A DNA stretch of 64,000 nt, from the NCBI GenBank assembly GCA_029834535.1, contig JAQMWT010000653.1, forward strand, positions 18,737-82,736, given 5' to 3'. The notes under the pieces are model-generated. The model made no database searches. It saw only the letters and a program-made list of their open reading frames with translations, and had not been told where the DNA came from. The position numbers and the translations under genes were made by a program. Positions 25,514-53,248 of the stretch are shown in pieces (within the stretch, counting starts at the first letter, position 1; the number at the start of each line of letters is the position of its first letter). Origin of the DNA: Chrysophaeum taylorii (taxonomy: Eukaryota > Sar > Pelagophyceae > Pelagomonadales > Pelagomonadaceae).

Positions 25514-26900
25514 CCAAAGTGGCGAAGTCCTGCCGACCGCGTTGAGCCCGACAGATCGATCCTTTGAGCAGCATTTGCGAATCTCCGACACCACCTTTCG
25601 TCACGCACAGACTCCGCTGTTAAATGCGCGTACTCGTGTCGTTAAGTGGGTGTCAAAAGATGATCTCCAGGATCCCACTAAATGGGAACCGCCAGGAGTT
25701 CCTATGCTTCCGCTTCCAACAGATGCGCCGGGGACGGCTTATGCTTTTTCTGCTGCCCCCCCCCGACAATCAACCCGACAATCAAAAGTGGACGTTCCGC
25801 CGGATCCTGAACCTGAACAGGAGCCGAAAGTAAGGAGCGAGCCGAATGTGCGCGTCAAAGGTGAAAAGATCAATAAGAGCCACCCTGAGGTGAGGTTCAA
25901 ATACAAAGAAAAGTTCGATGTGCCATGGAAGGATGCGCCGCGCGATGCGGACGGTGTACCGTTACCGCAGACTCCCGAGCACGTCAAGGACAATGATGCG
26001 ATGAAAGTCGTAATTCCGACGAAGGAAGAAGTCGAAAAGGTTGTTCGAGATCTGGGAATTCCCGACAACCCGCATCTGGATGATGATGCGAAGATGATGT
26101 TGAGCCACTGCGTGCAATACGCGTGGGCTTTCTTTGATCCGATTATGAGACCCGTGGACTCGCCACCGGTTTCTCTACGATTTAAAGACGCAAACCCACG
26201 ACCGATCAATATGTCGCCTTATACGTTGACGCCAGCAAAGCTCGAGTGTCTCAGAAAGCAGATCACTGAGTGGTGTCGCGATGGAGTCATCCGACCGGCG
26301 AACTCTCCGTGGGGATTCCCTGTACTGATGCTGCCTAAGAAGGGAGCAGAGGCCGGGACGTCGAATGCTTTTCGTGCTGCAGTTGACTTGCGTCGGCTCA
26401 ATGATCAGCTGGTCAATGACAGTTGGCCGAATATTCGTCAAGATGATGCTTTGGCTTTTCTTGCCATGCGCCGTTGACGGACGTGCATTGATATTCGATG
26501 GGGTTATCATAACCTACGTTTGGACGCCGCTGCTCAGGACGCTGTTACTATGGTTAGTCCACTTGGAGCCCGTAGTTTCTTGCGCTTGCCTCTAGGAGTA
26601 AAAACAGCAGGAGCTCTCTTTTGTAAGCAGATGGCTAGCGATTTGTCCACATGGATGTATAAGGACTTGGTCGCGTTTGTCGACGATATTATGATGGGAT
26701 CGGATGAACTCCATCGACATTTACAAGTTTTGATTGAAGTGTTGTGCCATTTGGCACAGCGAGGATATAGTGGACGAACTTCGAAGTTCCACCTCCTCAA
26801 GGATGAAATCGGGTTTTTGGGACATATTCCGACTCCGGGAGGCTTGACGCCGAATCCCAAGACGTTAGAAGCGTTGCAGCAGATGCCGATTCCCGGTACG
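25514..26900 (+). pseudogene. Element A3: linker and reverse transcriptase
   Basis: A charged linker (KVDVPPDPEPEQEPKVRSEP; KFDVPWKDAPRD) leads into RT from about 26020. RT blocks are GVIRPANSPWGFPVLMLPKK, FRAAVDLRRLN, CIDIRWGYHNLRL, LRLPLGVKTAGALFCKQ and the catalytic box AFVDDIMM (about 26675), intact though with Phe instead of Tyr. An in-frame TGA at 26475-26477 is the only stop in RT; no indels are seen. It resembles A2 closely but keeps the active site. Confidence 0.93.
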
Positions 26901-27560
26901 TTGCCCAATACGTCCCCGAAGACCCAGATTCGATCTTTCATTGGCATGAGCAACTATTGCCGCCGATATGTGAAGAATTATTCGAAGATTGTGGAGCCGC
27001 TTCGGCGATTGTGTCTTGAAGGCGTTAAGTTTGAGTGGACGCCTGCGTGCCAAAAGCCATGGGACACGATCATCGAAGCTTTGGTGGACTCTCGCGGACT
27101 TTATCATCCTGATTACGATCTTCCTTTTCAGATTCGCTCGGATGCTCCCAATGATGGTCTGGGTGCGTATCTTTTTCAGCTCGTGGAAGTCAAGGACGAA
27201 ACCGGCAAGGTGACACGAGAGGAACGAGTAATTGAGTATTGGAGCCGAGCTGTGCCGAAAGAGATGCGGAACTATGAGCCTCGTCGGCTAGAGCTACTGG
27301 CATTTATTCTTGCTCTAGAGCATTTCCGCTCTGATATCGAAGGTCACAAGACGATCCTTGAAACAGATCATCGCAACATGACGTTTTTACAAAAGGCGAA
27401 GCACTCGTCTGGCCAGTTGGCTCGATGGGCGATGCGGCTCGCCAACTTTGATCCTGAATTGGGTTACAAGCCAAGGAAGTCGCCGGGAATGAGTATCCCT
27501 GACTGTCTCTCTCGCAATCCTATATATCATGTCATCGAGACGGACGAGTTTGGTGAACCC
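26901..27560 (+). pseudogene. Element A3: RT connection and RNase H
   Basis: The frame stays open through IRSFIGMSNYCRRYVKNYSK (connection), FEWTPACQKPWDTI, and RNase H with QIRSDAPNDGLGAYLFQ, VIEYWSRAVPKEM, RRLELLAFILALEHF and LETDHRNMTFL, then ARWAMRLANFDPELGYK and PDCLSRNP. Catalytic acidic residues are present (RSDA, LELLA, ETDHRN). No stop or shift is seen in this segment. Confidence 0.92.
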
Positions 27561-28447
27561 TTGAACCACGCGTATCTAGTGTGCCAAGAACTCCCTCGCC
27601 CTGTCGATGATGAAGGAGTACCTTTACCTGGGTGCCATGTCATTCTGTCGTTTGTTGCGACTGAGTTGCCTGTGGAGAAACAGGAAGAAGACCTCGATGA
27701 TCCGATGCAATTGGTCACGTCTCATGCTACGAAACAACGTCAGAAGCAACGTCTGCAGACCCAGCCTAGTATTTTCCGTGATGCCGATGATTACCAAGAG
27801 TACATCGACAAGATTCCGGATAATTTGACTTTGGAAGAGACAGCCAAAGAGCAGATCACTGATGCTACTTGCGAGGACATTCGTTATCGCATGGCTCAGG
27901 GCCATTCTCTTCGTCGGTACGGAGCCAATTATCGCTATCAAGTGGTGAACGGAGTTCTCTACCGTGCCGCACCCGACTTGCACCCGATGATAGTCGCACC
28001 CCGAACTTCACGGACGCGCATCATCCGATTGTACCATGACACACCTCTCAATGGTGGTCATATGGGTCGTCAAAGTACAGTGCAGTCGATACTTGAACGT
28101 TTTTGGTGGCCCCACATGTCTAATGAGGCGGGCGCTTACATTTCTGGTTGTATAGTGTGCAAGAAAGCTCGTACGCCAGAACCAAAGAGAGCAGGTCTGC
28201 TTCAGCAACCAGTGTGTGATGGTGATTGCGTCGTCCTTTGTATGGATTTGTTTGGACCTTTGCCCAGTGCTGGTCCAGAGACATATCTGATCATCTTTCT
28301 TGATCCATTTTCTCATTTCTGGATTCTCGACGTACTACACCATAATACTGCTGAGTCAATCCTCGAGTCTTTTGTCGCGAATATATTGCTCAAAGGCTAT
28401 CTACCTCAGAGGATTCGTACCGACAATGGGAAAGAGTTCGTCGACAA
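27561..28447 (+). pseudogene. Element A3: integrase N-terminal part, cut by C1
   Basis: A linker (27561-27990) is followed by the zinc domain (YHDTPLNGGHMGRQST, WWPHMSNEAG, CIVCKKAR) and the core with Asp in CMDLFGPL (about 28242) and RTDNGKEF (about 28420). At 28448 it runs into the C1 LTR, so the catalytic Glu and the rest are absent. The continuation of A3 on the far side of C1 is not in the window. Confidence 0.92.
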
Positions 28448-28761
28448 TGCAGAGCAATTAGCGTGCAGTGGTAAGTCACCTGGGAAACCATCCCGTCTCA
28501 TCATGAACGTCTGGAAGTATTTAATTCGGGGAATGAAAGGTATGTTCCCTATATCCTCAGAACACGACAGACGGCATATAGAACTACACGAGAAAGGTTA
28601 AGTGTATGGTGCTACATACCTCGGGACGCGCTAGACCATGATGATGAGCTTGAGCACAAATCAGAGGACTAATTGACTGTGTATAAAGGAAGAAGAAGGG
28701 TAAGGAAGAGACCACGTTCTCAACGGACGGATAAGGGTAAGAGGCAGCAGATTTCTCTGCA
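28448..28761 (-). repeat. C1 3' LTR
   Basis: 314 bp. In element orientation it starts TGCAGAG and ends CTCTGCA, a perfect 7-bp terminal inverted repeat with TG...CA. It is preceded by the polypurine tract CGAGGGGG. C2 has the homologous LTR at 51262-51576. A TATA-like CCTTTATACACAG lies inside. Confidence 0.92.
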
Positions 28762-31703: not shown

Positions 31704-32859
31704 CTAGAGGCGAAGTGAACGGTTTTCCGGCTTCTTTAGGTAGCGGAGCAGGTGCTCTAGCATTTGGACGTGAACATACGTGGGTGCATGCATACCACGC
31801 GAACATCTGCCCAGGGCTTGCGAGAAGTCAGGTCTGCAGGCCACTTGCATGAACACCAGCTTGCCAAGGAGGGTGGCAAAGTGCGAATTGATGTACAACT
31901 CTGTTTCAGAGCTGGGAGTGCCATCTTTATACTTGAAGGACGATGACATAGGATATTTAAGCGGGGTCAGTTGCTGCAAGACAAGGTGATCAGCGAAGAG
32001 TTCATCAAGCTTGGCTTGCACATCCAGAGGAATGGATCCATCAGATGTGCGACACACACGCATGCCTAGGAGGGTATGGACAGGTTCAAACTGCTCTACA
32101 GCATACCGTTTGTGGTGGGCATCCTGTAACTCAGTACGAAGAGTGTCATCATTGGACACAATAACAATGTCGTCTACAGACAGACTGCATACGACGAACT
32201 TAGCATGTGCGGATACTCGAGCATATAGGCAAGAGTCCGAATGCAGGCGCTTGTAGCCAAGGCTACGGAAGAAGCCGTCTATCTCTTTGTTCCAAAGAGA
32301 TGGTGATTGCCGAAGTCCATAAAGTGACTTCAGCAGTTTCGGTAGGCGTCGGCCCTTGTACTTAGCGTCATCGGGGTCGATAAGCTCGACGCCGTATGGT
32401 AACGGAACATAGACGTCGGCATCAATGTCAGACTGAACGAAGGCGTTCGGGACGTCTGCGTGGTGGACAGGCAACTGCTTGTATGCTGCAATAGCCAGTA
32501 GTACCCGGATTGCGGTCATTGTGGCCATTGGGCTGAAGGTGCCAAAGAAATCGGCGCCAAGAGATGCTAGGAAGCCACGTAGCACGAGGCGAGCCTTGTG
32601 CTTAACGAATTTGCCTGCAGAGTCTGTTTTAATCTTCAGCACCATCCTGCTGTCAATAGGGCGAGAGACACCGTCGGGTAAAGAAAGTTTGAAGCAGCCA
32701 AACCGGATAATGTCGTGGAGTTCCTTGGCGATGGCCTTGACGTAGGCGTGCCTGTCTTCAGGCGACATACCGTGGAGCCACTCGAGTTTGTATTCATCGA
32801 TGGAAACGTCCGCTTATTGGGCCTTATATTCGTCAGGACCAACAGTGGCTGGTGAACTA
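31704..32859 (-). pseudogene. C1 reverse transcriptase (RVT_2 type)
   Basis: Copia RT: MVLKIKTDSAGKFVKHKARL, VLRGFLASLGADFFGTFSPM, HHADVPNAFVQSDIDADVYV, LLKSLYGLRQSPSLWNKEID, then the catalytic box SVDDIVIVSND (about 32170) with both Asp residues. A TAA at 32814-32816 lies in frame between the SLNY motif 3 and RT. Otherwise open. RT identity is certain. Confidence 0.93.
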
Positions 32860-32879
32860 TAGTTTAACGACGTTGCGGT
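32860..32879 (-). other. SLNY repeat motif 3 (integrase/RT boundary)
   Basis: ACCGCAACGTCGTTAAACTA, coding TATSLNY. It lies after the integrase C-terminal spacer and about 60 codons before the first RT block. A damaged copy is in C3 near 58186. Confidence 0.85.
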
Positions 32880-35021
32880 CGAGGCAGTGTGCGTGACTTC
32901 GGGATAAGCGGAAACAGCGTCAGTAGGAGTAGGAGAGGCAGATTCCAGTTGAATATGGATAGTAGGGTCGGCATGTAAGACCTGGGTGATATACTCTGTA
33001 GAGACCAGAAGGTATTCCTCCAAGTCAGCCAGAGATGCAGAATTAGCGCCAAACTCGGAGGAGTTGTGATCGATAAAGCTGGTCGGCGCCAGATACATAA
33101 GTGCATACTGTAAGGAAGAGATGCCAAAGGCAGCAGCGTGCTCAGTGAACGCAGCTAAAAGAGGCTGAGGAATGGGGCACGTAGGTGAGCCATCAGCAGT
33201 TAGAAAGGTTGCAACTGGGATGCTGGATGCGCACTTGGTGTGGGCGAAGTAACCATCGACGTGCGGGTAGCGGGCAAGTAAGTCAGTGCGCAACGGGAGA
33301 AGAAGACGAGCTAACAACGCATGTTCCCCCTCTGAGCAGATAGCAGACCAGAGGATACCACCATTGATATGAAGGGCGGAGAGGGCGGGAGACTTGAACG
33401 TAAGAAAGTGGTGGCGAAGATCCCAGCGGAAATCGGCGAGTTTGCCACCAACGGCTTTGTAAGCACCAATAGTAGACGCTTGCAGCCGGGCTTGGATATT
33501 TTCCATGGAGGTTGCCTTGCGGGTGTTAGGTTGTTTGGAACCTGGGACAAGAATGAGGTCATCTTGTGCAAAAAGGTCTTTGTAAGAAGGAAGCAAGGGC
33601 GGCGGTGGCATAGAGCCAGAATCGTCGGCTGCGTCGGAAGAGGGGGAAGAAGCAGGAGCAGGGGACGAAGAAGGAGCTGAAGGAGGTGGAGAATGCCCCC
33701 TCTGAGGATGAAGTGTCCGTGTCCCCCTCTGAATGACATGATATTGGATAGCGGCGTGGGGTGTGAGCGAGAAAGGCGCGGGAGGAGCGTGAGGCGGAGG
33801 AGCAAGTTCAGGATCAGGAGTAGGATGCTGGAGCATGTAGAGGAATTGCAGCTTGGACGAAACACGAATTTGTCCGTTTTCAGGGTTGAGGACGACGTCG
33901 GCGATATGGTCAACACGTGGGGAGACGAGCGGGTTTTGCGCGTTGGCGCAACATAGATATAAGTATTTGCGGCGGCACGTTTCCCACTTGTGGTGCTCGT
34001 GGGATTCCAACAGAAGGTAGCATTCAGCGCCGGAGATCTTGAGCATGTCATGCTGGGGGGTGCTTAGTTGGTTGTAGAGCAGCTGTTGCGGACATAGGAT
34101 GGCATGGTGAATGGGCTCGAGCGTGGCGTTCGGAAGGAGGTTGTAGCTTTGTATGGTGCGTATTACCGCCCAGGGGAACATGATGGCTCGTTCCACGATC
34201 TTTGAGCCACGATAATGAGCATCAAGGAGAGAACGAAGGCGAGTCGAGGAGGCGGAGGCGATGAAGCCGATGGCTGACCCAACTTCAAAGTCAAAGTGGT
34301 GCATGTACGGCGGGAAAGCGATGAGCCGAATGCCTTTATCGACGCGGCACGGGGCGGTAATGTGCTGGCTAAAATAGGGTTTGAAGGCATCAGAGAAGAG
34401 GGTGCGCACGTGCACGTTGAGTTGTGTACGACAAAAGTCATACACAAAATCCAGGGCTTGAGTGAACTCCGTGGCGTTGGTGGTGCGTGTCAAGTACACA
34501 ACAGAAACTTCGAGATAAGCTCTTTGAACACAATAATATGTGTGAAGCCTCCCCATTCTGACGGAATTGTCACATAGCCGCCGTCGCACGCCCAGACTTC
34601 GCCGGCTTTGTGAGTTTGCTCAAAAGAGGGCTTGGTCGGATTGAAGTGCTTGTGCGGGTGGCGCTTGTTGTGTACGATGCAGTCGGTGCATAAGTCGCGA
34701 GACGGTAGGTCAGAGGCAGAGAAGCCAGGGCGAGCCAGTACGTTGGGGGCCTTGGCAGCGACGTTGTCGGGGCAGTGGTGCACCCGGTGGAAGCGATTGG
34801 CACGTTCTTTGGCGTTGAGGTATTCGGCAGATCCGTGTGCCAAGGACTTGCGAGGAATGGGATGAGCGGGAATATGACGTTTGCGCCGAACATCGAACTT
34901 GAGTTCGGTGTCCAAGGCAGGGGGAGGCGGTGCGTCGTCATCCTGGTGCGCAGCAGGGTCACTTGGAGGTGCATCCTCATCATCACGAGTAGCGAGAGTA
35001 TCTTCGTAGGACGAAGATATA
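32880..35021 (-). pseudogene. C1 integrase and C-terminal spacer
   Basis: The zinc-binding part has RFHRVHHCPDN and CTDC. The core has WACDGGYVTI (first Asp, about 34585), a second Asp in FSDAFKPYFS (about 34390) and Glu in FEVGSAIGF (about 34280). The usual copia TDNG and NGxxER signatures are replaced, so this is a divergent core. A Pro/Ser-rich linker (33800-33600) and a conserved spacer (RWDLRHHFLTFKSPALSALH) follow. A one- or two-base loss near 34500 shifts the frame in C1; C2 is open there. Confidence 0.82.
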
Positions 35022-35041
35022 TAGTTTAACGACATTTCGGT
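35022..35041 (-). other. SLNY repeat motif 2 (linker/integrase boundary)
   Basis: ACCGAAATGTCGTTAAACTA, coding TEMSLNY. It is conserved at C2 (40542-40561) and, with one change, C3 (55243-55262). An acidic stretch and the integrase zinc domain follow. Confidence 0.88.
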
Positions 35042-35949
35042 CAAGCAGTTGCTGGAAATAGACGTCATAAAGGCTTGTGCCAAAGACAAGGTATCTGTGC
35101 TGCACGTGGTGGAGGCCTGACCAAAGGTCATAAAGTTGGATACATAGGATTTCTTCGTCACGGCAGCAGTATGTTGGAAGGTAGGGTCCAACATAAGAGA
35201 TTTAATATCGGCAACGAGGAGCGAAAGGTGCTTGTACAGTGTACTGTACGTACCTGCAGGCAGAGCATTGCTGAGCATGTCGCAGCAAGGGTCGTGGCGA
35301 AGAGACAAGAGGAAAGACTCCTGTTGTTTGGTGTGGTTGTTAGCACGAATCAACTCCAGTCGAGTGGCGTAGCATAATTTCCCGTTGCGAGGGTCGAGTA
35401 AAATAATGTTGGCATACCCTCGGACGGTGGGCAATGGAGCAAGCATGGAGTGCATTTTAGAGCCAAGTTTGCGGTCACTTCCACGAAGATACCCTATATA
35501 GCGACTATGAGATAAGTGGTGATCTTCCAGAGCAAAATGAGATTCTTTGTAGTCGAAAGAGCTGTCGGTGGCCTTGTAAGGCAGCCAGGCATTACAAGAG
35601 AGCATCTGGACAAGAGCTTTTGTATGGCGGTGCCATAGGTGGCAGCGGAGCCAACTTGAGGAAGGGCTAGGATTATCCACAAGTAACCCATAAACGGCTC
35701 CAAATATATAGATCTGTCCCTGTCGCGGGGGACGTTGGAGGCAGTAAACGTATACGTGCTTCCAAACGCGTCAATGGAAGCATGATATTTGGCGGCGGCG
35801 TTCTCTATGGTGAGGTTGCCGTCAGAATGGTGGCCACCGGTTAGGAAGTAGATATTGTGCGATGTTGATGAGGTTGCAAGTAGCAACCTATGTGACGGTT
35901 GGTCAGTTTCGAAAACAGTTATGTAATAGGACACAGGAGTGGGTGAGTT
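35042..35949 (-). pseudogene. C1 linker region between MTase and integrase
   Basis: A conserved region of unknown function, with blocks KYHASIDAFGSTYTFTASN, HFALEDHHLSHSRYIGYLRG, MLAPLPTVRGYANIILLDPR and LPAGTYSTLYKHLSLLVADI. It is present in C2 (39640-40540) and C3 (54420-55240). C1 lacks 4 bases near 35580 compared with C3, which shifts the frame. No family recognised. Confidence 0.75.
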
Positions 35950-36962
35950 AGTGTGTAAGCTGGCAAACAAGTTATAGAGGATTGTAAAAACCTTGACGTG
36001 TATAGGATGTGTTGCATTGGGTAATGGCTCCATAGAGGAGCGTTTAAAGTACAACTGGTGATAAGTACACTCGGATTGAACAGAGTGAGTACGTTGCTCG
36101 TGAGCCTGTTGTGAGTGAAGGCGAAGCAGTAACATATTGAGGGATTCAAGGTCAGCCATAGTAAGCTGAGCAGAACCTGTGCGAGAGTAAGGTGCAAACG
36201 TTTTAGGAACGGGTATATATGGAGGATCGGGGAACACCCGGATCCAGTCTTTGGATATGTGGTTAGGCAGCCAAAGGCGCGTGGGAATAGCTTGTAGATC
36301 ATCCACGATCTTTAGGAAGGGGCGTGGATGGAGGATAGGCCACGACAATGCTTTAATTGGTCCAGTAGAATACATGCGTGCGATGCATATCCATCTTTCT
36401 CTAGATTGGTAGTCGCCACAGAGGTAGGTCGGGAGCCTATCAACAACATCGACACAGTAATCAAGTGTAGTATGGATGAGGTTGGCCACTGTGATGTGGT
36501 CTTGATGACAGTACTTATGCGGAGGCGTCATCTCAGCCAGTAGCACCAAGGGTTGGAGTAACTTGATGACAGACAGCATGCTGTCGAAAAGAGAATCGTC
36601 CAGCAGGCTGTGTAAGTCTTCTGTCTTATGCTGTTTTAGTAGACTCCTGTTCGTGCAGGGAGGAGTGATCTCAATTATATCACAATAGAATGTGCGTCTT
36701 TCCTCTGGTGAAATTAGGCGAAGATGGTTAATAAAGGCGGGGGGAGATTCAAATAATAGTACAGTAGGAAAACGGTGGCGTGACATACGAACAAGCGTAT
36801 CATCAGACTCAACAACAACTTTTACATTGATATTTAAGCCTAAGTCATTAGTGGCTTGAGACAGGAACGCCGGATTTGACAAACCAGAACAAAGTAACAT
36901 GACAGAGGGTTTGCGGAGATTGGACTCTTGCGAGAGAAACACTGGGCGTGAAAGTAGTCAAG
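35950..36962 (-). pseudogene. C1 cytosine-C5 DNA methyltransferase domain
   Basis: C5-MTase motifs appear in order on the minus strand: I, VMLLCSGLSNPAFL (about 36905-36860; second Gly of the usual GxG missing); II, VVVESDD; IV, EITPPCTNRS with the catalytic PPC codons at 36655-36663; VI, LLAEMTPP (about 36530); VIII, GDYQSRERWICIAR (about 36400); and a motif X-like PLPNATHPIHVKVFTIL (about 36010). It is very different in sequence from the A-family domain. It lies between protease and integrase, and the N-terminal edge is next to S copy 5. The C1 frame is open throughout. C3 keeps motifs I to VIII. SAM binding may be weak given motif I. Confidence 0.82.
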
Positions 36963-36976
36963 TTAATGGCTGCGTA

Positions 36977-37358
36977 AATACCCTTACCCTGATCGCCGAC
37001 TGCGGTTGCGATGGAGGACGGTGCCTCATGAATCCTGAGCCTTGCGAGGGCATCCGCCCTCCCGGCGTAGGTTGGCACCTATTCGCCTCCCGGGCGGGCC
37101 GGTTGGCAGCCGGAACGTTCGCAGTGGGACGGGGTATGGCCGGGGGGCGAAGACGGAAGGTTATCGACGAGTTGGTTGTCAGTCACATCGCGGTCTCCTC
37201 GTCGCATGGCGACAAGCTGATGGTCGACAAGCTTGAAGGTCACTCTCCGCCGACCGACCTTTCGGCGCTCCTCGTCTACTGGCCCGTGATTCCGGACTGG
37301 CTCCTGTCGGTCCGGCCTGGCTCCCATGCTCGGGAGAGGTCTGAAGTTAGTTAGTTAG
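36977..37358 (+). mobile_element. SINE-like element S, copy 5 (full length)
   Basis: The best-delimited copy, 382 bp, from AATACCCTTACCCTGATCGC to the (TTAG)n tail. It is flanked by TTAATGGCTGCGTA (36963-36976) and TTAATGCCTGCGTA (37359-37372), a 14-bp duplication with one mismatch. C3 at about 52485 is a paralogous empty site. Insertion plus duplication (396 bp) keeps the C1 frame. Inserted between protease and MTase. Confidence 0.93.
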
Positions 37359-37372
37359 TTAATGCCTGCGTA

Positions 37373-38037
37373 TTTTGCTGAACAAACTTGTTCTGTTTCC
37401 GAAGATTGAGAACCAAAGGGCGAATCCACGGGCGATCTGGTAAAACTCTTAGGAGTAGGTAGTTGTAGTATGCCAGTAGATCCCTGTTTTCATGGTATCG
37501 TTCGAGGGGAAATGCGAGGGAACGATGTTCGAGTTGCTTGTCGCGAGCGATGTTGTAAGTGAGACAAGGGAGAGCAGGTAAATTAGCTGCTATGTAGTGT
37601 ATGGGAACACGCACATATTTGTCTATGCGGCTCGTGACAGCGCTGAGCTTTGGCTCAGCTCGATCATTGAACACAGTGGTCAGGCTCGACTGGTTCCACT
37701 CGAGCATGCTCAGGATAGCGAGATGTCGGTCGTGCACTGGCTGAAGACATAAAGCGAAGTCGATCTTAACGTAGCCAATTTGTGGATGATCTGGTAGGGG
37801 AACAACAATGTTGCGTGTTAACATCATGTGTGAGGCACGTTGTTGTCCAGTGGCTGTTTGAATAACAATCGGCGCATATTTGGAGTCCAGTGGAATAAAG
37901 TGATTAGGTATTGCAAAATCATAAGTGGACATCAATGAGATGGTAGCACAAGAGTCAAATATAAAAAGGAACAATGTGGAGGGACACTGTTTACCTTCAT
38001 GTAGTTGGTGAGGAAGGCGTTTACCGAATGTGTGCAA
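37373..38037 (-). pseudogene. C1 protease domain (DSC active-site variant)
   Basis: The block FIFDSCATISLM (codons around 37942-37965) aligns with the copia retropepsin W-x-L-D-[ST]-G-A-T-x-H-M block, but Gly is Cys, giving DSCAT. C3 has the same FDSCATISLM, so it is a family feature. Later blocks are IVIQTATGQQRASHMMLTRN and GYVKIDFALCLQPVHDRHLA, and LSMLEWN. The role would be processing of the polyprotein. The frame differs from upstream Gag by a single base (TATTTG in C1, TATTTTG in C3). Confidence 0.7.
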
Positions 38038-39601
38038 GTGGTGGAGAGGCTGGCTGTGAAGAAGTTCTCCAGCAATAGCAGATTCGTTAGAATGATAATC
38101 GGTTGAACAGGTGGTGATGGTTCGTCAACCTCATCAGCCATGCCGTGCTTTTCATCAAATGACGATAGCGAAGTATGATCGGCATCCCTTTTGGTTTCGG
38201 CTTGTGGTGGTAAGTTGAGGGCAGATTGGACCTGTGAAGATAGCGAGGACAGTAACGCTGGTGGTAAAGCCGAGATGGCGTAAGCAGTAAAGAGGTTAGG
38301 CACAATATTGGAGGGATTACCCTGTGTGTTGGGGGCAATCTTCGTGTCTGTAGTAGGAGGAGTTGCCTTTGGGGTGGGAGCAGTAACAACAGTATGGTGT
38401 TGTGGCTCCACGTAGTTTAACGACTTTTCGGTCGAGGATAGATGAACGTCTACATCATAAATGATATCTTCGGCACACATGAGTTGTTCGTTTAGACGAA
38501 GTAAATTGCGGTTGTCCTCCGTAGATGTCGTTGACAGAATGTCAGCTGATTGTAATAGAGTCTCAAATAACTTGTTGATATTCTGTTGTAGCTGAGCCGT
38601 GGTATCGTTATCTGTCACATGCTTCGTAAGTTCACTACACTGTTCTCGCAGGGTGTTTAAGGTGTGATTTGTTCGATCTATTAATTTCATGTTAGATCGA
38701 GAGGACCTGTCAAAAGTGCGGGGGTAAATTGGACGGTCATGGGACTGTCCAGCAGTTTTCTTGGTGACGTAAGAATCACCAGAACGAAAATACGATAAGT
38801 CGCTGCGAGAGAAAGGCTGGCGAGCATCATTAGAGTTACGCAAGCGTCTAGCATTAACGTGGAAGATGTACCAGGTTGAGACGCAGTGATGAGGGCGAGT
38901 GTGTTAGCAGTTTGAGTCAGACTTTTGTCTGCTAAATCCAGCGTGTTTATAAGTAGTAACTTTGGCTTTGGTTGAGATGACAAACCTTCGACATAGGGTT
39001 GCCAAGAAACGGGGCGTTCTAAGCGTCTTTTGTTCGACCCATTTGATACTACATTGTATAAGTCTAATGCATATTCTAAAATGTAGCTAGGGTTGGTAGG
39101 GTGACACAATCGTTCAGCTTCTGGCACAGGCCGAGATGAAGATCGGGTTTCATACATATAACACCAATCTACCCAACCACGATCGTAACGATTGTTGCTG
39201 GTATTATCGTCACAATGGCTATGTATCTCTTCATAGATTTTTATACAAAGAGTACCAAAGTCGAATTGAAGGTCAGTCTCTTCCTGGTTAAGTTGGTAAG
39301 AGATTTGCCTGAATGCTAGGACAGCTTCGATAACTACATGGACATACCAGTTAGGATTATTAACAACAGAGTTAAATTGCTGTTTCAAATAGGACACATC
39401 AGTAGTCGCAACAGACTCGTAGTGACTAAAAGCGATGAGCATAATGGCTCGAGCCTTGTTGGTTAAATAACTTTTGTTATATACCTCTTTGATGGCGGGC
39501 CTGGCCGCAAGTGCTGGTTTTCCAACACTTTCCAGATTGAAGTAAGTATGCAAGAATGTAGCATACGTGTTCTGATAAGTGTGCCAGTCAGCAGCAGCCA
39601 T
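37990..39601 (-). pseudogene. C1 Gag
   Basis: Starts at ATG 39601 (MAAADWHTYQNTYATFLHTY). The first ~250 codons are helical with no recognised domain. After a frame change near 38700-38840 it continues (RSNMKLIDRTNHTLNTLREQ, a probable coiled coil near 38690-38500). Then come SLNY motif 1 and a Pro/Thr-rich stretch. No CCHC zinc knuckle is visible. Called Gag from position as the first ORF of a copia element. Confidence 0.6.
38413..38432 (-). other. SLNY repeat motif 1 (Gag/protease side)
   Basis: ACCGAAAAGTCGTTAAACTA, coding TEKSLNY. It lies about 150 codons upstream of the protease active-site block and after the Gag coiled coil. Confidence 0.85.
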
Positions 39602-39610
39602 CCTCTATAA

Positions 39611-41895
39611 TGTGTTTGCCAGATTGCACACTAACTCACCCACACATGTGTCCTATTACATAACCGTTTTCGAAACTGACCAACCGTGACATAGGTTACT
39701 ACTTACAACCTCATCAACATCACACAATACCTGCTTCCTAACCGGCGGCCACCATTCTGACGGCAACCTCACCATATAAAACGCCGCCGCCAAACATCAT
39801 GCTTCCATTTACGCGTTTGAAAGCACGTATACGTTTACTGCCTCCAACGTCCCCCGCGACAGAGACAGATCTATATATTTGGAGCCGTTTATGGGTTACT
39901 TGTGGATAATCCAAGCCCTTCCTCAAGTTGGCTCCGCTGCCACCTATGGCACCGCCATACTAAAGCTCTTGTCCAGATGCTCCCTTGTGATGCCTGGCTG
40001 CCTTACCTACAAGGCCACCGACAACTCTTTCGACTACAAAGAATCTCATTTTGCTCTGGAAGATCACCACTTATCTCACAGTCGCTATATAGGGCATCTT
40101 CGTGGAAGTGACCGCAAACTCGGCTCTAAAATTCACTCCATGCTTGCTCCATTGCCCACCGTCCGAGGGTATGCAAACATTATCTTACTCGACCCTCGCA
40201 ACGGGAAACTACGCTATCCTATTCGACCGGAATTGATTCGTGCTAAGCACACCAAACAACATGAATATTTCCTCTTGTCTCTTCGCCACGATCTTTGCTG
40301 CGACATGCTCAGCAATGCTCTGCCTGCCGGTACGTACAGCACACTGTACAAGCACCTTTCGCTCCTCGTTGCCGATATTAAATCTCTTAGGTAGGACCCT
40401 ACCTTCCAACATACTGCTGCCGTGATGAAGAAATCGTATATATCCAACTTCATGACCTTTGATCCGGCCTCCACCACGTGCAGCACAGATACCTTGTCTT
40501 TGGCACAAGCCTTCATGGCGTCTATCTCCAGCAACTGCTTGACCGAAATGTCGTTAAACTATATATATTCGTCCTACGAAGATACTCTCGCTACTCGTGC
40601 TGATGAGGATGCACCTCAAAGTGACCCTGCTGCGCACCATGATGACGACGCACCACCTCCTCCTGCCTTGGACACCGAACTCAAGTTCGATGTTCGGCGC
40701 AAACGTCATATCCCCGCTCACTCCATTCCTCGCAAATCCTTCGCACACGGATCTGCTGAATACCTCAACGCCAAAGAACGTGCCAATCGCTTCCACCGGG
40801 TGCACCACTGCCCCGACAACGTTGCAGCCAAGGCCCCCAACGTACTGGCTCGCCCTGGCTTCTCTGCCTCAGACCTACCGTATCGCGACTTATGCACCGA
40901 CTGCATCGCACATAACAAGCGCCACCCGCACAAGTACTTCAATCCGACCTAGCCCTCTTTCGAGCAAACTCACAAAGCCGGCGAAGTCTGGGCGTGCGAC
41001 GGCGGCTATGTGACAATTCCATCAGAATGGGGAGGCTTCACACATATCATTGTGTTCAAAGAGCTTATCTCGAAGTTTCTCTGGGTGTACTTTACAAGCA
41101 CCACCAACGCCACGGAGTTCACTCAAGCTCTGGACTTTGTGTATGACTTTCGTCGTACACAACTCAACGCGCACATGCGCACCCTCTCCTCTGATGCCTT
41201 CAAGCCCTATTTTAGCCAGCACAATACCGCCCCGTACCGCGTCGATAAGGGCATTCAGCTCATCGCTTTCCCGCCGTACATGCACCACTTTAACTTTGAA
41301 GTCGAGTCAGCCATCGGCTTCATCGCCTCCGCCTCCTCAACTCGCCTTCGCTCTCTCCTTAATGCTCATTATCCTGGCTCCAAGATCGTTGATCCAGCCA
41401 TCATGTTTCCCTGGGCGGTGATACACACCATCCGAAGCTACAACCTTCTCCCGAACGCCACGCTCGAGTGCATTCACCATACTATCCAGAGTCCGCAACC
41501 GCTACTCTACAATCAACTGAGCACCCCCCAGCATGACATGCTCAAGATCTTCGGCGCTGAATGCTACCTTCTATTGGAACCCCACGAGCACCACAAGTGG
41601 GAACCGTGCCGCCGCAAATACTTATATCTATGTTGCGCCAACGCACAACACCCGCTCGTCTCCCCACGTGTTGACCATATTGCCGACGTCGTCCTCAACC
41701 CTGAAAACGGACCAGTCCGTGTTTCGTCCAAGCTGCAATTCCTCTACATGCTCCAGCATCCTACTCCTGATCCTGAACTTGCTCCTCCGCCTCACGCTCC
41801 TCCCGCGCCATTCTCGCTAACACCCCACGCTGCTATCCAAGACCATTCCATTCAGAGGGGGACACGGGCACTTCATCCTCAGAGTGGGCACTCTC
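39611..41895 (+). pseudogene. Element C2, first part: linker and integrase
   Basis: It begins abruptly inside the region after the MTase (TGTTTGCCAG, then CACACTAACTCACCC). It continues through the linker (FALEDHHLSHSRYIGHLRG), SLNY motif 2 at 40542-40561, and the integrase zinc and core motifs (CTDC; WACDGGYVTIPSEWGG; LSSDAFKPYFSQH; FEVESAIGF). It has stops at 40392 and 40950. The B2 insertion ends it at 41895. C2 is head-to-head with C1. Confidence 0.85.
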
Positions 41896-42082
41896 TAGAG
41901 ATAGAAAATTCCATTTAGGGTTAGGAACCCCCCTCCCCATTAACCTCACACTCACTTACAACCACTAAATCGCTGTGTCGCACACCGTGCTGCTCTTTGT
42001 GTCGTTAGAGGACAGGACGAAAGGCAGCACTACCACTGCCACCATTCTCTACCAGAGGCACAGTGATTTTTACTGTTCTCTA
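41896..42082 (+). repeat. B2 5' LTR
   Basis: 187 bp; about 9 substitutions by eye from the 3' LTR. GGTTTGGACCCAGTCCGG follows, where a primer-binding site is expected; I could not match it to a tRNA. Confidence 0.92.
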
Positions 42083-42303
42083 GGTTTGGACCCAGTCCGG
42101 TACTGGTAGAGAAACGTCCTCCGAAAGATATCGATATCGATCGACGTCTCGGACAAAGGCGCAGGATTTCCAGAAAAGAGCAATCTCCTGAAGTTCCTGA
42201 AAGTTTTAAGACCGTAGTCAAGTTTCGTCGCTTGCTACTGGTGGAAAAGTGTGAAAACGTGTGAAGGGCAACCAACAACGCGCAAAACGCAACCCCGAAA
42301 ACG

Positions 42304-45300
42304 ATGGCGACTCAAGACCCACAAGTCCCGAGTCTGGAAGTAGCGACGCAATTCGCTACACGGAACGCTCCCATGCAACAGTTCAAAGCCGATTTGGCTG
42401 ATTGCCAACGGCTCCAAGCTAATCTCCTAGATCAACACGCCGCTGATAATGCTGCCTTGCAAGCCAAAATCGCTGCTGGTTACGCTGATCTCAGAGCCAA
42501 AATCACTGCCGCAATCGAAGCTCAGGACGAGCAACTCGATCAAGACGTGCAACTCGATCAAGACGAGCAATTTGAACAAGCTCCCCAACCAGCTGTTCAT
42601 AAGGCAACTCCCCTCAAGCACAAGCAAACTTCTCACGAAGTCGCGACCCAAGACCCGATCATCTCGATGGTCACCCCCCCTCATGTCGACAACACCACCG
42701 GACGTCAAACACCCCACGGCAAAGTCTCAGACCCCACTGCCTTCCCTCCGGACCCAGGCATAGCCAAGGTTACTCCACAACCTGGCACACCACACATTCA
42801 CGAGGACACTCCACCTTGTTCGAATATCGCACCAGCAATATTGAACACTCCACCACCACCACCACTAAACACTACTCCCTTCACTCCGCCAACCCCACCG
42901 GAGCCTCCACCTCCTTCACTGGAGCCTAACTCCCCACTATCGGCGACTCCCGCTACACCACCTATCCAAGTTCCCCAACATCCTCGTCAACCCCCTCGCC
43001 ACACCACTCATCTCCTTGATGATCATGCCATATACGGCCATGGCGGCCCCGGCACCTTCATCCCTGAACCAAGCCCCCACCGCGGCTCAGGCTCATGCCG
43101 CTCCACTGTCGGATTCCCTTGTCCGATACCTATCATCTTCCGCAAGTCACTCTCCTCCGGAGTTTCCTCTCCATCCACAAGACCATGCCACCTACGGCCA
43201 CGACGGCCCCGGCACTTCCATTTCTACCACAGCTCCTTCCGCGGCTCAAGTTCCTGCCGCCCCACCATCGGACCCTCCTGACTGACCTTCCTCACTTTTC
43301 GAAAGTCGCTGTTCCCCCGATTTTCCCCTCCACCCGCATGACTATGCATTTCACGACTACGACCATTCCGTCCCCATTCACGCAACACTCCACCTCCTTT
43401 CTCCAAGTTCAAATGCACCTCCGTCTGAGCTCCAACGCGAGTTGGCCACAACTACGGCTGCATTCCGCTCCCAAACCGCTGAATTGGCCGCAACTAAGGC
43501 CATGCTCATTCGCAAGGATGACGCTTTGTCCTCCACAGCCAATAAACTCACCACCGCCGACGCCGCCCTGGCTTTCGCCACTGCCCAGCTCGCCATCCTA
43601 GCCGACGAACTGGCCTCCACCCGAGCCGAACTCCATCTCACCCATACCCAGCTCAAGGCACTCGAAACTGCCCACGCTGACATCCGCAGCTCCCACCTTG
43701 AAACCAACGCCGTCCTCCAAACCATTATTACCTCGTTGGATGCCACCCACCCCGCCCAAGATGCTGCATCGCATCTTTTACCTCCTTTCCCCATCCACAC
43801 CCAACCTTCATCCCCTTCCGAACCAACCTCCAATGCCTCTCCCCAGATTCTCCCCGAGTATCATCACAACTCCACGGATGCCCCGGACCTGGTTCTCCTG
43901 GTTCACCACCCACTCCGTCTCTCTGTTCTCCACATCCCGCCATCTCTGGCCCCTCCTCCTCTGCCAAATCACTCTTCGCCTCTTTGGCACCCCCTGAACC
44001 CCTTTGCACCCGCTCGCCTTGTCAGCTACCTGGTTCATTCCAACTCGACCACATCCCCGCGTCCGAGTTGCGAGGGCGCACATTCCACACCGGCGACCGT
44101 ACCCCTACCACCAGCGACGATCACCACGTGCAAAGTCCCACCAAGAATCAAGACCACCCACATCAAGAGTCGACAAGTTCCGAACTATCAAAAGACAGCT
44201 CTTTGCCAAATGGTCATGCTCACCATCACGCTGCCGAGACATGCATAAGGGCCTCTTCTCTCTTCGGGCACAACGGCCCAGGAAGCAATCTTGTCGAAGA
44301 AACACCAAGCCAACTCGTTCCCACCTTCGACAAGTCAAAGACCAAGACACCTCGAGATGTTCCCGAGTAGTATGCCTACATCGATTATGGCAACCACACC
44401 CAATAATCTAAGGCTCCGCCGTATTCCATGCACCGGGCGCAAGAGCCGCAGGCCACTGACAACATCCCCTCTTATTCAGTCCCCTGGTATGATGCATATA
44501 GCGAAGAAACAAGACCCATTTCACTAGTCTCGAAGATGGTCTCCTCGACCATTCCAGATCAGCCGCCTGATCCGAGCACCACCAATAACCCCGCAATGCC
44601 GAATCCACAAGGACAAGACACGCTGTCGACGGTCCCACGGTCACCATACTCGCAGGCACTCACCGCACCTGCAGGTATCAGCTCAGATTCAGCAGGCACT
44701 CCCGCCTTGTTCGATATCTCTCGATCAGCAGCCCCCGATCACTTCGAAGCTGGTTCCGCCTCGCCGCATCCCCTCCTCGAAGACAGGCGCGCACTGCCGC
44801 TCACCGGCGCTTGCTGCTGCACCCACCATCCACCTTCTCGGTCGGATGCACTGGATGCCACTGCTCAGCAGGTTGCATGGACCCATCTGCGACCACCGTG
44901 TAACGATTTGATGGATGTCTTCGCACGAGCACCAGTCGCAGCACCTGATCACCCGCTCCCTAACTTTCAGTCAGAGGACGCACTCCTTTTGACTGCCGAT
45001 CATTATGTCTCACCGCGACCAAGCCTCTGGAAAGCTTTCCCCATGGCCGCAGTAACAGACACAGATTTCGAGAGTTCTGAACGACCCGATCAGCCGCAAA
45101 CAATGCACGATTCCATTGCGACCACTTCGGTACTGTATGTCCCCTTGCATAGCTCTCTTCTGGACGCCACACGCTTGCGCTGCCTCCGAAAAATCGACGT
45201 TGCGCTCTCAGGAAACATTCCCCGCAAACTGTGCACAGACTCGCTCCAACTGAACCACTTCTGTAAGCATTTTCGCATCACTGGAATGCACGACAAACGT

Positions 45301-45314
45301 TCCACGCCAGCTGC
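42304..45314 (+). pseudogene. B2 ORF1: coiled-coil and YGxDGPG-repeat protein
   Basis: ATG 42304 (MATQDPQVPSLEVATQFA) opens a frame parallel to B1 ORF1. Blocks are KITAAIEAQDEQLDQDVQLD, HATYGHDGPGT (about 43185; the first repeat is changed to AIYGHGGPGT), the coiled coil KAMLIRKDDALSSTANKLTT (43500-43720), and VPWYDAYSEE. Frame changes near 43075 and 43890 and stops near 44368 and 44403 break it. Where B1 has stops at 12639 and 13287, B2 is open, so the ancestor was probably a single long ORF. Confidence 0.6.
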
Positions 45315-45357
45315 TTCGCATCACTGGAATGCACGACAAACGTTCCACGCCAGCTGC
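45272..45357 (+). repeat. 43-bp tandem duplication in B2
   Basis: Same unit and position as in B1 (14945-15030): 45272-45314 and 45315-45357. It shifts the frame from ORF1 to ORF2. Confidence 0.95.
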
Positions 45358-48300
45358 CGGCTCCACCACAAACATGCACCCAAGTCACGTACGTTGCCTC
45401 CCTCGAAAGCGTCTTATCGCTCAGCACGTCACTCCTCATTTGAGGACGCATGTCACATGCCCGCACCTTCGAATGCTCTACACGCCAAAGGGCAACCCTG
45501 GTCAATACGGCACTCACCGCTCTGGTCCCAGCATCTCCGCTATTGAGGATGCACCCTGCAGAACTGACCCTTACATCGCCTTTGGTTCAACTGCACTCTC
45601 CTTCGGCGACCCCTCTCTTCGAATTCCCGCACTGGACCCCAAGCATTTCAGGCCGGATACTCTCCACCACGGGATCTCAGCTCACGCGCCCATCTGCCCT
45701 ACCTTGCAGACAGGTCAGCCGCGAGCCACACTCCTTTTGGCACTGACGTCGGACCACCTGCATCACGCGCTTTCGCTCTTGGAGCATGACACGCTTGTTG
45801 ATGCTCTCCGCGTCACCGCCTCTAACACCACGACACTCGTCATTTCAACCGACACCCCGCGCCGCAACGTATCTCACGACCTTCCGATCACCAGCATAAG
45901 TCGCTCGCGCCCGCACCACGACGCGCACGCCTTACGAGGGCGCATTTCAATTGGTGACCTCACAGGTCTTTCGATGCACTTTCCGACGTCCGACTTTGAA
46001 CTTACGAGTTACTTTATGGAAATCCCCGATGCCAAGACGTCTGAAGCTGCGCAGTCATATATCTGGAACTCCAAAGCAACAGAAACTGCCAGACAAGAGA
46101 GCATTCAGCTCTCAACAGCTGCTCGACGGCTACTCAAAGTCTCGCACATAGCAACCAGTACTATCTCGCAGTCTCTATTGGACGACAAGACGAAAGATAA
46201 GACCACAAGGGCCAGCTACACCAGCCAGCTCATTGATGTAGCAGACGAGATAACGCAAACCAACGGCACAGCACGGTTCCATACTATGCAGACGATGCTC
46301 AGGTCCAACGCTCAATTACTCGACCACGCAAACGTTCTGTCACCTGACCTTGCACTGCTACTGGCTCCTGTCTCATTCATAGCTGATGCACCCCATCCGA
46401 TGGACCAATCCTTAAGATATGTCCCGCTCGCAGAAGCACCACCACAGGACACAAAGGTACATCATGAAGACTCGGGTAAGCGCACCACGATCACGCGCAC
46501 AAGCTCATTGCGCCTATCCGATCACGACGAGACGAAGCTACAGCTTTGCTTGTTCCCTTCGCCTCTGGAAGACAAAGGCCGCCTCTCAGCCCCCCAGGCA
46601 CCTGACCCTTCCCTGTCGCTGCAATCCGTATTAGCACAGACGATCTCGCCTCCCTGCACGACTGCAGATCAGGCACAAGCCAATGTCAGCACTCTGCAGA
46701 GTTATGCGCACCCGCTGGAATCTTACCAGCACGGCTACCTCAGCCAGCCAGGTCACTGCACCACCTCGGTCTCCCCTGACACCAGGTCGACGTATCGCTC
46801 ATTCGCGACCACCTCAAGTCATCTAATGGACGACTATTATCTCGAGCATGAACTCATTGAAACGCTTGAGTCATACCCAAGAAGGCATCCTACTTTGGAG
46901 TCACCTCAGCCACTCCCACAGGAACTTTGGCCACCGGACGCCACCCATGTGCTCATGGTTTCTCCATTGGTTTCCTCCGAAGAATTTGACTGCAGCAGAG
47001 ACAAAATGCAACCTTCCCATGCGACTATAACCGCATTCTCGTTTGAGACACAAGCATTTACTTCATGTCATTTGTTTACGCCCATAGTACCGCGACACAC
47101 GGCAACCAAGATAGAAGTGGACTGCGTTCCACCCTCCTCCCTGAGCGCCACCCCCGACATGCTGCTCCCGGCACTACTAGCCAGTCCCATCACGTCTGAT
47201 TCAGCTCCCATCATTTTATATGACGTCATATGTCATATTCCGATTGAAGCCCAGACACCGCACAGGCTACTATGCACTCGCGACGGCACGCTCACCGCCC
47301 CTCTCGGTCTAGACTACGAACATTGCGCCATACCCATGGTACACCCACAGTCAACCGAGACGCACGCTCGCTTGTCGCACAGTACGATGCCCGAACACCT
47401 TTTGATTCATGATACGCAGAACACTGTCGTCTCAGCCACCGCTGAAGCGCCTCCCCCGACCGCCGCGCGGCTCCGCGCTCGTTTCGCAATCATGGTCTCT
47501 CGGTCTCACCGGCAATTCGAAGATTCCACCCAGTTCGAATTACGAGGGCGCATTAGTATTCCTCCGACGACAAGATTCGTTTCGATTCGTATCAGTCATG
47601 CCTCCTACGGCTACTCTGGATACATCGGAACTCAATTCAAGGCACGTACCGAAGTCCCTCTTTCTAAGGACCTCTGTCACACGCCAAGACCTGATGAGTA
47701 TTCGCCGTTCCTCCCCGCTTCAACGCGACTCCCGACGACCAACTCCCCGACGATTTGTGATGACACTAAGTTCCGTCATCAATGCAATTCAGAGCCTCCC
47801 ACGCTCCTCCGTCAGTCTCTCGCAGGTCACACCTCTCAAGTTTCAGCGTCCCACCCTCGCTCGATTTTACCCAGCATGCTGCCATATACAAACGAAGTTC
47901 AGTCACGCCAACGCCACACGTCGCAGTTATCGCTAGTCTCGCGCAATAAATGCCCGCCACCAAATGATAGCCGCACGCAGAGTCCTTTGCTCACCTCTTT
48001 TCACGTCCCTCCCAGCACTATGCTTGACGTTGAAGCTCTGCACCACTATGGTTCGGTTACAACACAACTTCACGCGAAATCCTCGTCCAGTTCTGATCAT
48101 ATCTCGCATCTGTCGACATTGTTATCGGAATCATGCTTCGGACACAGGTCAGACAGCACCAGCGTATTTACTCTCTTATGACGCACTCGATTCGATCCTC
48201 TCCGTTCGCACTGCAGGTTCCATCTTGCAGAACTCTGAGCCCAACAGCCGCCATTGCGTTTCGCACCCAGTCGACGCTTTCCGTAGCACCCGCGATGATA

Positions 48301-49559
48301 ACCCCCAATCTCCACAGGTTGGACACGCGCTCTGCTCTAAGCATTTCACCGCATCTCACTGCCGCACACCGCTAGCCCCACCCAGTTGTGTTACGAATCA
48401 AGGGAAGTTAACTGCCATGACTATTCACTTCTTCATTCCCACACACTCGCTGCTAGCCACAGTATCGCATGACTCATTATCGGACAGTTCTCGCATTATG
48501 GACAGGACCTCACATCATGTTCATTCTTCGGACATCCCCCGTCCACAGATCCATCCTCTCTTGTAACATACGCTCCCTACACGTCGTAAACTGTACAGCT
48601 CTCGCATATCGACAACACCCTTCCGTCGAATGTCTCCCCTTTTAGTCACTGCACGATTCACCAGGGATGCACCACGCTCACTCGCGCTTGTACATCAATG
48701 GAAGTTTGATTATGGTGAAAGCGTTTCGTTTGATTCTGATGAAAACGACGCCGGACATGAAATGAATGGATTAGTCGATTGTCACAGTTCAGGATCACTT
48801 TGCAACATAGAACACGAAAGATGCGACTTTGACCATACCTTCGAAGTCAACTCCCCCCCTGGCACGGACACTATCTTCCAGCAGTCCATCGCCTTCAGGC
48901 ATTCTCTTCTGTTGCCCAACTCTTCTACATTTTCTGCACAGGGCACCGACTCGTCAGCACGGGACACACGCCTGTATCCACCATCATGCGCGATACACTC
49001 GCAAACCTCAGTCTCCGCCCAATCATCTTTCGATGATAGCCACTGGCGACTTACACGAGACTACGAACCCAAAGCTACAGCAAATTTGGAGTTTTCATAT
49101 TTATGGCCAACCCCAGACAACTTTATAAAGATATCACCATCGCACTACGATTACACCCACATCATTTTAGACGCTCATAGCCTAGCTTCAGCTGTCCCAC
49201 GCTACACTCAGGACGACAGCTTTGACACGTATGTGACAGGCAATTCTGGTTCCCTCATCTTCAATAAACAGCTCCGCCTTACTCGCTCTCATTACGACGA
49301 TTACCTTACCATGTCGAAAACTATTTGGTTGAATGGTCATATCTCTGCATGGGGTCACGCTGGCGCTCCGTCACATCGTCAAATCTTTACTAGCCCAACA
49401 TTAGCCACAATAGAATCTCATCCCTACGGCCACTCTCATTATTCGCCTTCCGATCAACCATTGGTCTGCTGCACAATTCCCGACTGCCTGACCCATGATC
49501 CCTACTGTCATTATTCGTTAGATCACCTGCTCTACTCAAATGCTCCCCCAGACACTTAG
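45329..49559 (+). pseudogene. B2 ORF2: very long Ser/Thr/His-rich protein of unknown function
   Basis: Open for 950 codons from 45329 to 48181, then after a frame change to about 48566, and again 48630-49559 (ending with TAG). It parallels B1 ORF2. Blocks conserved between copies include EVDCVPPSSLSATPDMLLPA, VICHIPIEAQTPH and TRSHYDDYLTMSK. It holds no recognised domain. In a ~220-bp stretch compared by eye (46846-47070 against 16560-16784) most differences change an amino acid. Confidence 0.5.
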
Positions 49560-49906
49560 GATTTATCCACCGGCACACACCGTCCCCTATATCATTAGCC
49601 ACCGAGCAATATGGCGATCTGCTCTCTCGCACAACATTCGCCGTACTTCATCGTTAGCCTACTTAGCATCTTCCTCCACTTTTCTTCTTACTCACGATCG
49701 ATGCTTTTTCCTTTCTTTGATCTTCCGCTCTTTCTCCTTTCTCACTTCACACACTACCTGCGTTTCGTGTCCCTCTATCTCGGTCATGCACTTCGCACAC
49801 TTTCCTTCAACGCCTCCTCGCGACTCGACATCCATTTGTCCTTGGCCAGACATTTGTTTTGTTTGTCCCCGATTTCGCTCATCACCGAGTTCAATCTGCG
49901 AGGGCC

Positions 49907-52500: not shown

Positions 52501-53248
52501 TAACATGAGTGCTTTCTCGCCCAGTGTTTCTCTCACAAGAGCCCAATCTTCGCAAACTCTCTGTCATGTTACTTTGTTCTGGTTTTTCAACCCCAGCGTT
52601 CCTGTCTCAAGCCACTAATGACCTAGGCTCAAATATCAATGAAAAAGTTGTTGTTGAGTCTGATGATACGCTTGTGCGCATGTTACGCCACCGTTTCCCT
52701 ACAGTATTATTATTCGAGTCTTTGCCCGCCTTTATCAAACATCTTCACCAAATCTCACCAGAGGAAATGCACAAATTTTATTGTGATATTATCAAGATAA
52801 CTCCTCCATGCGCTAACAGAAATCTACTAAAGCAACAAAAAAACAAAGACTTACACAGTCTGCTCGACGATTCCCTCTTCGACAGCATGCTGACTGTCAT
52901 CAAGTTTCTCCAACCATTGGTACTGCTGGCTGAGATGACACCACCCCACAAGTACTGTCATTAAGACCATATAACTGTGGCTAATCTCATCCATTCCACA
53001 CTCGATTACTGCGTTGATGTTGTTGACAGGTTCCCAACCTACCTATGTGGCGACTACCAATCTAGGGGAAGATGGATCTGCATCACACGCAGGTATTCTA
53101 CTGGACCAAAACAACATACTCTCATGGCCTATCCACCACCCACGCCCCTTCTTTAAGATAGTGGATCAGATTGCACACTAACTCACCCACTCCTGTGTCC
53201 TATTACATAACCGTTTTCGAAACTGACCAACCGTCACATAGGTTACTA
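52501..53248 (+). pseudogene. Element C3: MTase domain, motifs I to VIII
   Basis: Aligns with the C1 MTase: VMLLCSGFSTPAFL (I), VVVESDD (II), KITPPCANRN (IV, PPC codons about 52803-52811), LLAEMTPP (VI), and CGDYQSRGRWICI (VIII, about 53045-53083). A TAA near 52963 replaces a Gln codon of C1. After FKIVD (53165) there is a deletion that removes motifs IX and X and joins the linker. The D2 insertion ends it at 53248. Confidence 0.8.

Follow-up and report, generated by a model that had tools for sequence, protein, structure and literature searches.

Retrotransposons that encode their own C5-cytosine methyltransferases (C5-MTases) have already been described among LINE, DIRS and Gypsy elements, namely SymbioLINE-Dnmt and SymbioDIRS-Dnmt3 of Symbiodinium and KnitGypsy-Dnmt3 of Klebsormidium nitens (PMC5890265). 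In yeast, according to that account, the DNMT domains of two DIRS copies add CG methylation de novo, and methylation of the element cDNA was proposed; for the domains of the LINE and Gypsy elements no yeast activity was seen, a result that the authors judged inconclusive. A host element of the Ty1/Copia superfamily has not been clearly reported in the accounts covered here. One paper (PMC12344493) places DNMT3 in “LTR Copia and DIRS” elements, citing the 2018 paper (PMC5890265); because the cited paper reports Gypsy, the mention of Copia may be a slip. The literature searched contained no clear account of a C5-MTase placed between the protease and the integrase of a Copia element, but most subscription papers lie outside that literature and the absence is weak evidence. 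The parts of an account of DNMT classes in algae that were covered (PMC9998398) likewise describe no such Copia element.

Here we analyze a 64,000-nucleotide stretch of the Chrysophaeum taylorii genome (hereafter, the window), corresponding to positions 18737-82736 of its contig, together with the genome itself (70.8 Mb, 697 contigs). An initial annotation of the window had proposed that a Ty1/Copia element, C1, carries a C5-MTase domain between protease and integrase. Our comparisons support the reading of this minus-strand region (36942-35950) as a putative, strongly diverged C5-MTase domain of a Ty1/Copia element (Table 1).

Table 1. Positions, within the window, of the Copia element C1, its methyltransferase-like domain and related features.
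Feature	Position	Strand	Remarks
C5-MTase-like domain of Copia element C1	35950..36942	minus	331 aa analyzed
Open frame holding the C5-MTase-like domain	35494..36957	minus	487 aa; starts right after the UGA
In-frame UGA, next codon CUA	36958..36960	minus	ends the protease frame
Motif I-like LLCSG	36883..36897	minus	identical in 23/25 copies
VVES (motif II)	36816-36805	minus	kept in 24/25 copies
Motif IV TPPC with catalytic Cys	36655..36666	minus	ITPPC in 24/25 copies, ITSPC in the remaining one
Motif VI-like LLAEM	36529..36543	minus	25/25 copies; Glu kept, ENV replaced by EMT
Motif VIII YQSRERW (QxRxR kept)	36391..36411	minus	QSRERW in 24/25 copies
PLPNA, proposed motif X	36013..36027	minus	24/25 copies; assignment weak
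Copia reverse transcriptase	31704..32768	minus	RVT_2 E 5.5e-43
Integrase region	32814..35770	minus	split over two frames in the window copy
Protease frame (FDSCATIS)	37351..38124	minus	upstream of the UGA; by position and signature; no Pfam match
Repeat of ~400 bp between protease and methyltransferase	36977..37358	minus	window copy
Gag-region remnant	38687..39604	minus	by position; no Pfam match of note
3' LTR of the C1 copy	28448..28761	minus	93.7% identity with the C42 copy's LTR across 316 columns
C3, truncated second copy of the domain	52509..53135	plus	~residues 1-207; one internal stop
Ty3/Gypsy element; C5-MTase-like A domain before RT	23874-28601	plus	

Architecture of the Copia element

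The element is Ty1/Copia, as annotated: in addition to the RVT_2 match in the window, RVT_2 lies downstream of the integrase in a related open frame (L039), and the C42 copy is bounded by LTRs, with a 317-column match at both ends (92.7% identical) and about 11.85 kb from end to end. The copy in the window is damaged. Cut at about 39597, it lacks the 5' LTR and the first part of the gag region, and an oppositely oriented Copia fragment (39600-41894, plus strand), equivalent to residues 326-1092 of the L039 frame, abuts the cut 5' end. The natural open frame of L039 (421-5496, minus strand, 1691 aa) runs from the methyltransferase (about residues 1-336) through the integrase to the reverse transcriptase (RT), with weak matches to rve (E 0.0076) and to SH3_retrovirus (E 5.6e-4), neither of which reaches the curated cut-off, and a match to RVT_2 (E 7.7e-42); PF00145, the Pfam family of C5-MTases, was not listed for this frame at E 0.1. 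Natural open frames bear out the annotated placement of the domain, in the order protease, domain, integrase and RT, the protease being recognized by position and by FDSCATIS, which we take to be its signature.

A near-identical 16-bp duplication of the stretch immediately 5' of the UGA flanks the repeat of about 400 bp in the window copy. A short interspersed repeat was found at 1761-1970, 37153-37362, 51726-51935 and 62258-62467, and inverted at 20000-20352; one of its copies lies just 5' of the C1 UGA, and L015 seems to have a similar one close to this position. The window also contains two copies of a longer repeat (about 11544-20350 and 41893-50230, plus strand), separated by about 30.3 kb, with 90-96% identity in most 300-nt blocks; their frames reach 950 aa, and those tested had no Pfam match below E 0.02.

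Homology to C5-cytosine methyltransferases and related domains in the genome

Taken alone, the C1 domain reaches E 0.087 against PF00145, which is under the cut-off and at noise level, as unrelated families attain E ~0.01-0.1 on neighboring frames. A search of NCBIfam with C1 gave no match, and the PHROGs family phrog_116 (“DNA methyltransferase”) matched at E 0.0043. Two outside relatives were recovered from 5.8 billion proteins, P0002 (392 aa, 42% identical; an ORF from an MMETSP transcript) and P0003 (269 aa, 38% identical), and a second search with an eight-row alignment returned only these two again. PF00145 is the sole Pfam match of both P0002 (E 4.4e-4) and P0003 (E 6.1e-5), the latter passing the curated cut-off (23.0 bits vs. 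22), and phrog_116 matches them at E 3e-8 and E 4.6e-7, respectively. A member of a second Copia lineage in the same genome (L004) matches PF00145 at E 1.1e-9.

Profiles gave the same picture. A profile of C1, P0002 and P0003 (A3) matched two PDB sequences up to E 10, both of them cytosine-specific methyltransferases (E ~0.05). With a larger profile of eight sequences, including five of the second lineage, the matches up to E 10 comprised 28 distinct PDB sequences (best E 9.2e-9); every one is a C5-MTase, many are HhaI variants, and no molecule named DNMT3 is among them. The annotation had suggested a profile-profile comparison, and in hhalign A3 aligned with the five second-lineage sequences at 95.3% over 207 columns and, under another match-column setting, with a score of 66 over 294 columns; reversing the profile gave 5.3, and the highest score in 60 column shuffles was 11.4. 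Without its relatives, C1 scored 7.58 against the second lineage, inside its own 60 shuffles (best 8.34); thus, its homology to C5-MTases is shown via P0002 and P0003 and not directly.

The annotation also proposed a structural prediction to test for a Rossmann methyltransferase fold. The predicted models are Rossmann-type but of a confidence too low to be decisive (mean pLDDT 44.6 for C1 and 44.0 for P0002), and their Foldseek matches are split: those of the C1 model are a mixture of DNMT and dehydrogenases, and the 50 listed for the P0002 model are mostly dehydrogenases and include no DNMT. As both models match dehydrogenases about as well or better, the domain could in principle belong to a different class of Rossmann-fold enzymes, such as the dehydrogenases, and share no more than short blocks of similarity with C5-MTases. 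We consider this very improbable, because neither Pfam, NCBIfam, PHROGs nor the PDB sequences listed a dehydrogenase for C1, P0002, P0003 or the profile, every PDB match of the larger profile is a C5-MTase, and the two Copia types align over 207-294 columns. The C5-MTase reading is thus supported through the relatives P0003, P0002 and L004 and through the PDB matches.

Searches further afield returned little. Two whole pol frames (7990 candidates scored, E up to 1e-10) retrieved four proteins, with PF00145 absent from their precomputed Pfam lists, and a scan of viral contigs matched 44 stretches, with no relative among them by tblastn. In phage tblastn, the best of 70 records found with the second lineage is annotated as a DNA methyltransferase (E 7e-6), and of the four records retrieved with P0003, three are methyltransferases (E 0.1) and the other is a halogenase (E 0.4).

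The second Copia lineage (L040 and L041; L003-L008 by domain) carries the domain at the same place in pol. In its L041 frame (3597-9455, plus strand, 1952 aa), the protease signature is followed by matches to PF00145 (349-475, E 1.1e-7), to rve (E 0.0061) and to RVT_2 (E 1.6e-38). The methyltransferase of this lineage is much closer to PF00145 than that of C1, and in L041 it shares one frame with the protease with no UGA between them, whereas the C1 family has a UGA at this point. RT identity between the two lineages is 36%, compared to 22-28% with three other Copia RTs (P0008, P0010 and P0011; a fourth match, P0009, was excluded), and the RTs of the two lineages group together with support of 100/99 against these three, subject to a long-branch warning. 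The simplest reading is a single capture of the domain before the two Copia lineages split; two separate Copia captures are possible. Upstream of the first long frames of L041 (1457-1890), a 217-bp unit occurs twice in tandem with 100% identity.

The C5-MTase-like domain of the Ty3/Gypsy element in the window (the A domain; 23874-25199, plus strand) has FSGAGG as motif I and SPPC, and matches PF00145 at E 3.5e-4, just under the cut-off. According to the annotation, the Copia domain is of a different kind, and this holds both for sequence distance (hhalign probability of 0.3% between the A domain and the Copia profile) and for placement in pol, since the A domain lies before the RT of a Ty3/Gypsy pol whereas the Copia domain, with LLCSG, lies between protease and integrase. 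Yet motifs I to IV are in register despite the 0.3%, and the two domains therefore look like one family without a recognizable recent ancestor. Dozens of partial PF00145 matches elsewhere in the genome cover profile positions 2-77 and may be relatives of the A domain. The two strongest PF00145 matches of the genome are L001, which looks like a DNMT2 judging from its motif, and L002, which lies in a 2086-aa open frame and has CSGTEAP as motif I.

Conservation of the domain and of the UGA in front of it

The domain is represented by at least 125 rows in the genome (a few loci account for two rows), a lower bound given that 121 of 1151 first-look candidates were scored. We fetched the 30 best-scoring rows and compared the 25 copies of exactly 993 nt, excluding five of other length; three of the 25 have one internal stop, and stop codons were skipped. 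Across 300 pairs, the pooled pN/pS was 0.207 and the median dN/dS 0.195, although the true pN/pS may be somewhat higher because choosing the best protein matches biases pN downward. The domain is under purifying selection, and nearly all copies retain the catalytic Cys, the Glu of motif VI and QxRxR.

All six blocks named in the annotation were found in the order given there, within one minus-strand open frame, and their retention in 23-25 of 25 copies at a pooled pN/pS of 0.21 is beyond chance. Block coordinates (Table 1) were derived from residue numbers of the copy alignment, and the motif names are those that we take to apply to its positions. Invariant residues in the eight-row alignment include Gly20 (I), Glu45 (II), Pro95-Cys96 (IV), Glu137 (VI) and Arg183 (VIII); the motif IV Cys is present in all 25 copies and in all eight aligned proteins, and QSRER of motif VIII is interrupted in a single copy, by a stop inside it. 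The assignment of PLPNA as motif X is doubtful, because the VFT.L.N stretch that follows it is kept in P0002 and the second lineage but PNA in neither; no target recognition part and no motif IX or X were identified in C1. The annotation also ascribed the domain to C3, which matches up to about residue 207, with QSRGRW at motif VIII, but is a fragment with an internal stop and not a full copy.

Two motifs depart from the usual form. Motif I of C1 reads LLCSGLS compared to the canonical FxGxG, with one Gly kept, and in motif VI the Glu is kept while Asn-Val is replaced by Met-Thr. These alterations (CSGLS, EMT), and the far greater divergence of C1 from PF00145 relative to the second lineage, would fit a catalytically dead scaffold, in which what was once a methyltransferase now serves as a module for nucleic-acid binding or integrase targeting. 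However, Cys, Glu and QxRxR persist in nearly all copies, with Cys and Glu in every one of the eight aligned proteins, and the CSG form of motif I also occurs in L002, a long open frame of the same genome that matches PF00145 at E 2.8e-15. We therefore regard loss of activity as distinctly unlikely.

Over codons 15-59 of the domain, copies L009-L038 show few synonymous differences (pS 0.02-0.05 vs. ~0.12 in many later blocks), but we claim no RNA signal there because equally deep dips occur in codons 225-239 and 255-269. Differences of the C/T type are slightly more common at CpG (0.070-0.075 vs. 0.052-0.057). As this excess is only slight, heavy CG methylation of the copies is not evident, and the excess neither supports nor excludes methylation of the cDNA.

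In the C1 family, a UGA located 20 codons before LLCSG separates gag-protease from methyltransferase-integrase-RT. The sequence TGACTA is found in 28 of the 30 fetched copies and is invariant there, whereas codons -6, -3, -2 and -1 vary; the remaining two copies (L030 and L038) have lost the UGA through small deletions. AUG comes directly after the UGA in all four fetched copies of a diverged group (L042-L045), and GUG does so in C3. The boundary at the UGA is thus conserved. The ORF of P0002, labeled complete by its source, also starts shortly before motif I.

UGA followed by CUA is a readthrough context. Nevertheless, readthrough as the only mechanism is not sustained given UGA-AUG in L042-L045 and UGA-GUG in C3, and for the same reason reinitiation is as possible as readthrough. 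RNA folding of two 141-nt stretches at the UGA showed nothing unusual (z of 0.57 and -0.39). In the description of Tca2 of Candida albicans, a UGA also lies between two coding regions of one RNA, although there it separates gag from pol, whereas in the C1 family it separates protease from methyltransferase (PMC2194720).

Proposed function and comparison with known elements

The best explanation overall, to which we assign a probability of roughly 0.6, is that a captured C5-MTase, kept in pol behind a UGA, methylates the cDNA of the element. It builds on the homology, position, copy number, catalytic-residue conservation, purifying selection and UGA documented above. A Ty1/Copia lineage would have acquired a diverged C5-MTase domain, most simply once and before the two present-day lineages separated, and selection would have kept it between protease and integrase in pol. 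In the methyltransferase-integrase-RT frame, which follows the conserved UGA at the end of the gag-protease frame, the domain would be the part translated first. Within the virus-like particle, it would then most likely methylate cytosines of the new double-stranded cDNA before integration, and the new copy would carry a mark that the host also uses. The individual steps differ in strength: it is quite probable that the domain is catalytically active, DNA is somewhat favored over RNA as its substrate, and action on cDNA in the particle has a little under an even chance.

DNMT2 methylates tRNA, and the CFT motif is specific to DNMT2. The domain could instead be an RNA methyltransferase acting on the RNA of the element or on the tRNA primer, thereby aiding packaging, stability or priming. 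DNMT2 is the best Foldseek match of the first, low-confidence C1 model, pol proteins generally act in a particle filled with RNA, and RNA methylation has been suggested for the LINE-borne enzyme (PMC5890265). We nonetheless find this unlikely, as the PDB sequences that the profile matches best belong to enzymes of bacterial type, HhaI among them, and the two DNMT2 sequences appear only at E 1. Methylation of cDNA is taken as the most likely role because of the DIRS precedent (PMC5890265).

A more extended account is offered tentatively, and we would give it rather worse than even odds. Two LTR superfamilies in one genome would each carry their own, barely similar C5-MTase; that of Copia would have been captured once and multiplied to more than 100 copies, and a programmed UGA would limit the amount of methyltransferase-integrase-RT in the particle, where the element would methylate its own cDNA. 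Cytosine methylation silences transposons in many hosts, and an element that keeps a methyltransferase of its own reverses the usual picture. That a strongly diverged enzyme in Copia occurs beside another in Gypsy, in a single genome, points to captures of this kind being recurrent and of use to the element. A Copia lineage with the enzyme at a defined position in pol also provides a system for testing self-methylation of cDNA.

Other mobile elements with captured modifying enzymes show more distant likenesses. Orchid Ty3/Gypsy elements with an m6A RNA demethylase domain are, as described, also LTR elements with a captured nucleic-acid modifying enzyme, but of opposite chemistry and in another superfamily (PMC9289625). 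Sola1-1 of Ectocarpus is, like C1, a mobile element with a DNA methyltransferase, but it is described as a DNA transposon in which the enzyme is a separate gene of the N4C/N6A methyltransferase class (PMC12477816). The DNMT3 ascribed to LTR Copia in PMC12344493 resembles the present case by description only, as the passage concerned gives neither domain order nor sequence. Among the closest systems, the Symbiodinium Copia elements covered in PMC5890265 are without any DNMT domain, whereas the host element here is Ty1/Copia. The C1 domain also differs from the elements of that account in lying between protease and integrase and in falling, when taken alone, under the PF00145 cut-off. The C1 family nevertheless has in common with them a C5-MTase inside the coding region, many copies and the retention of key residues, and the pN/pS of 0.21 in the C1 family stands beside a Ka/Ks below 0.2 given for KnitGypsy (PMC5890265).
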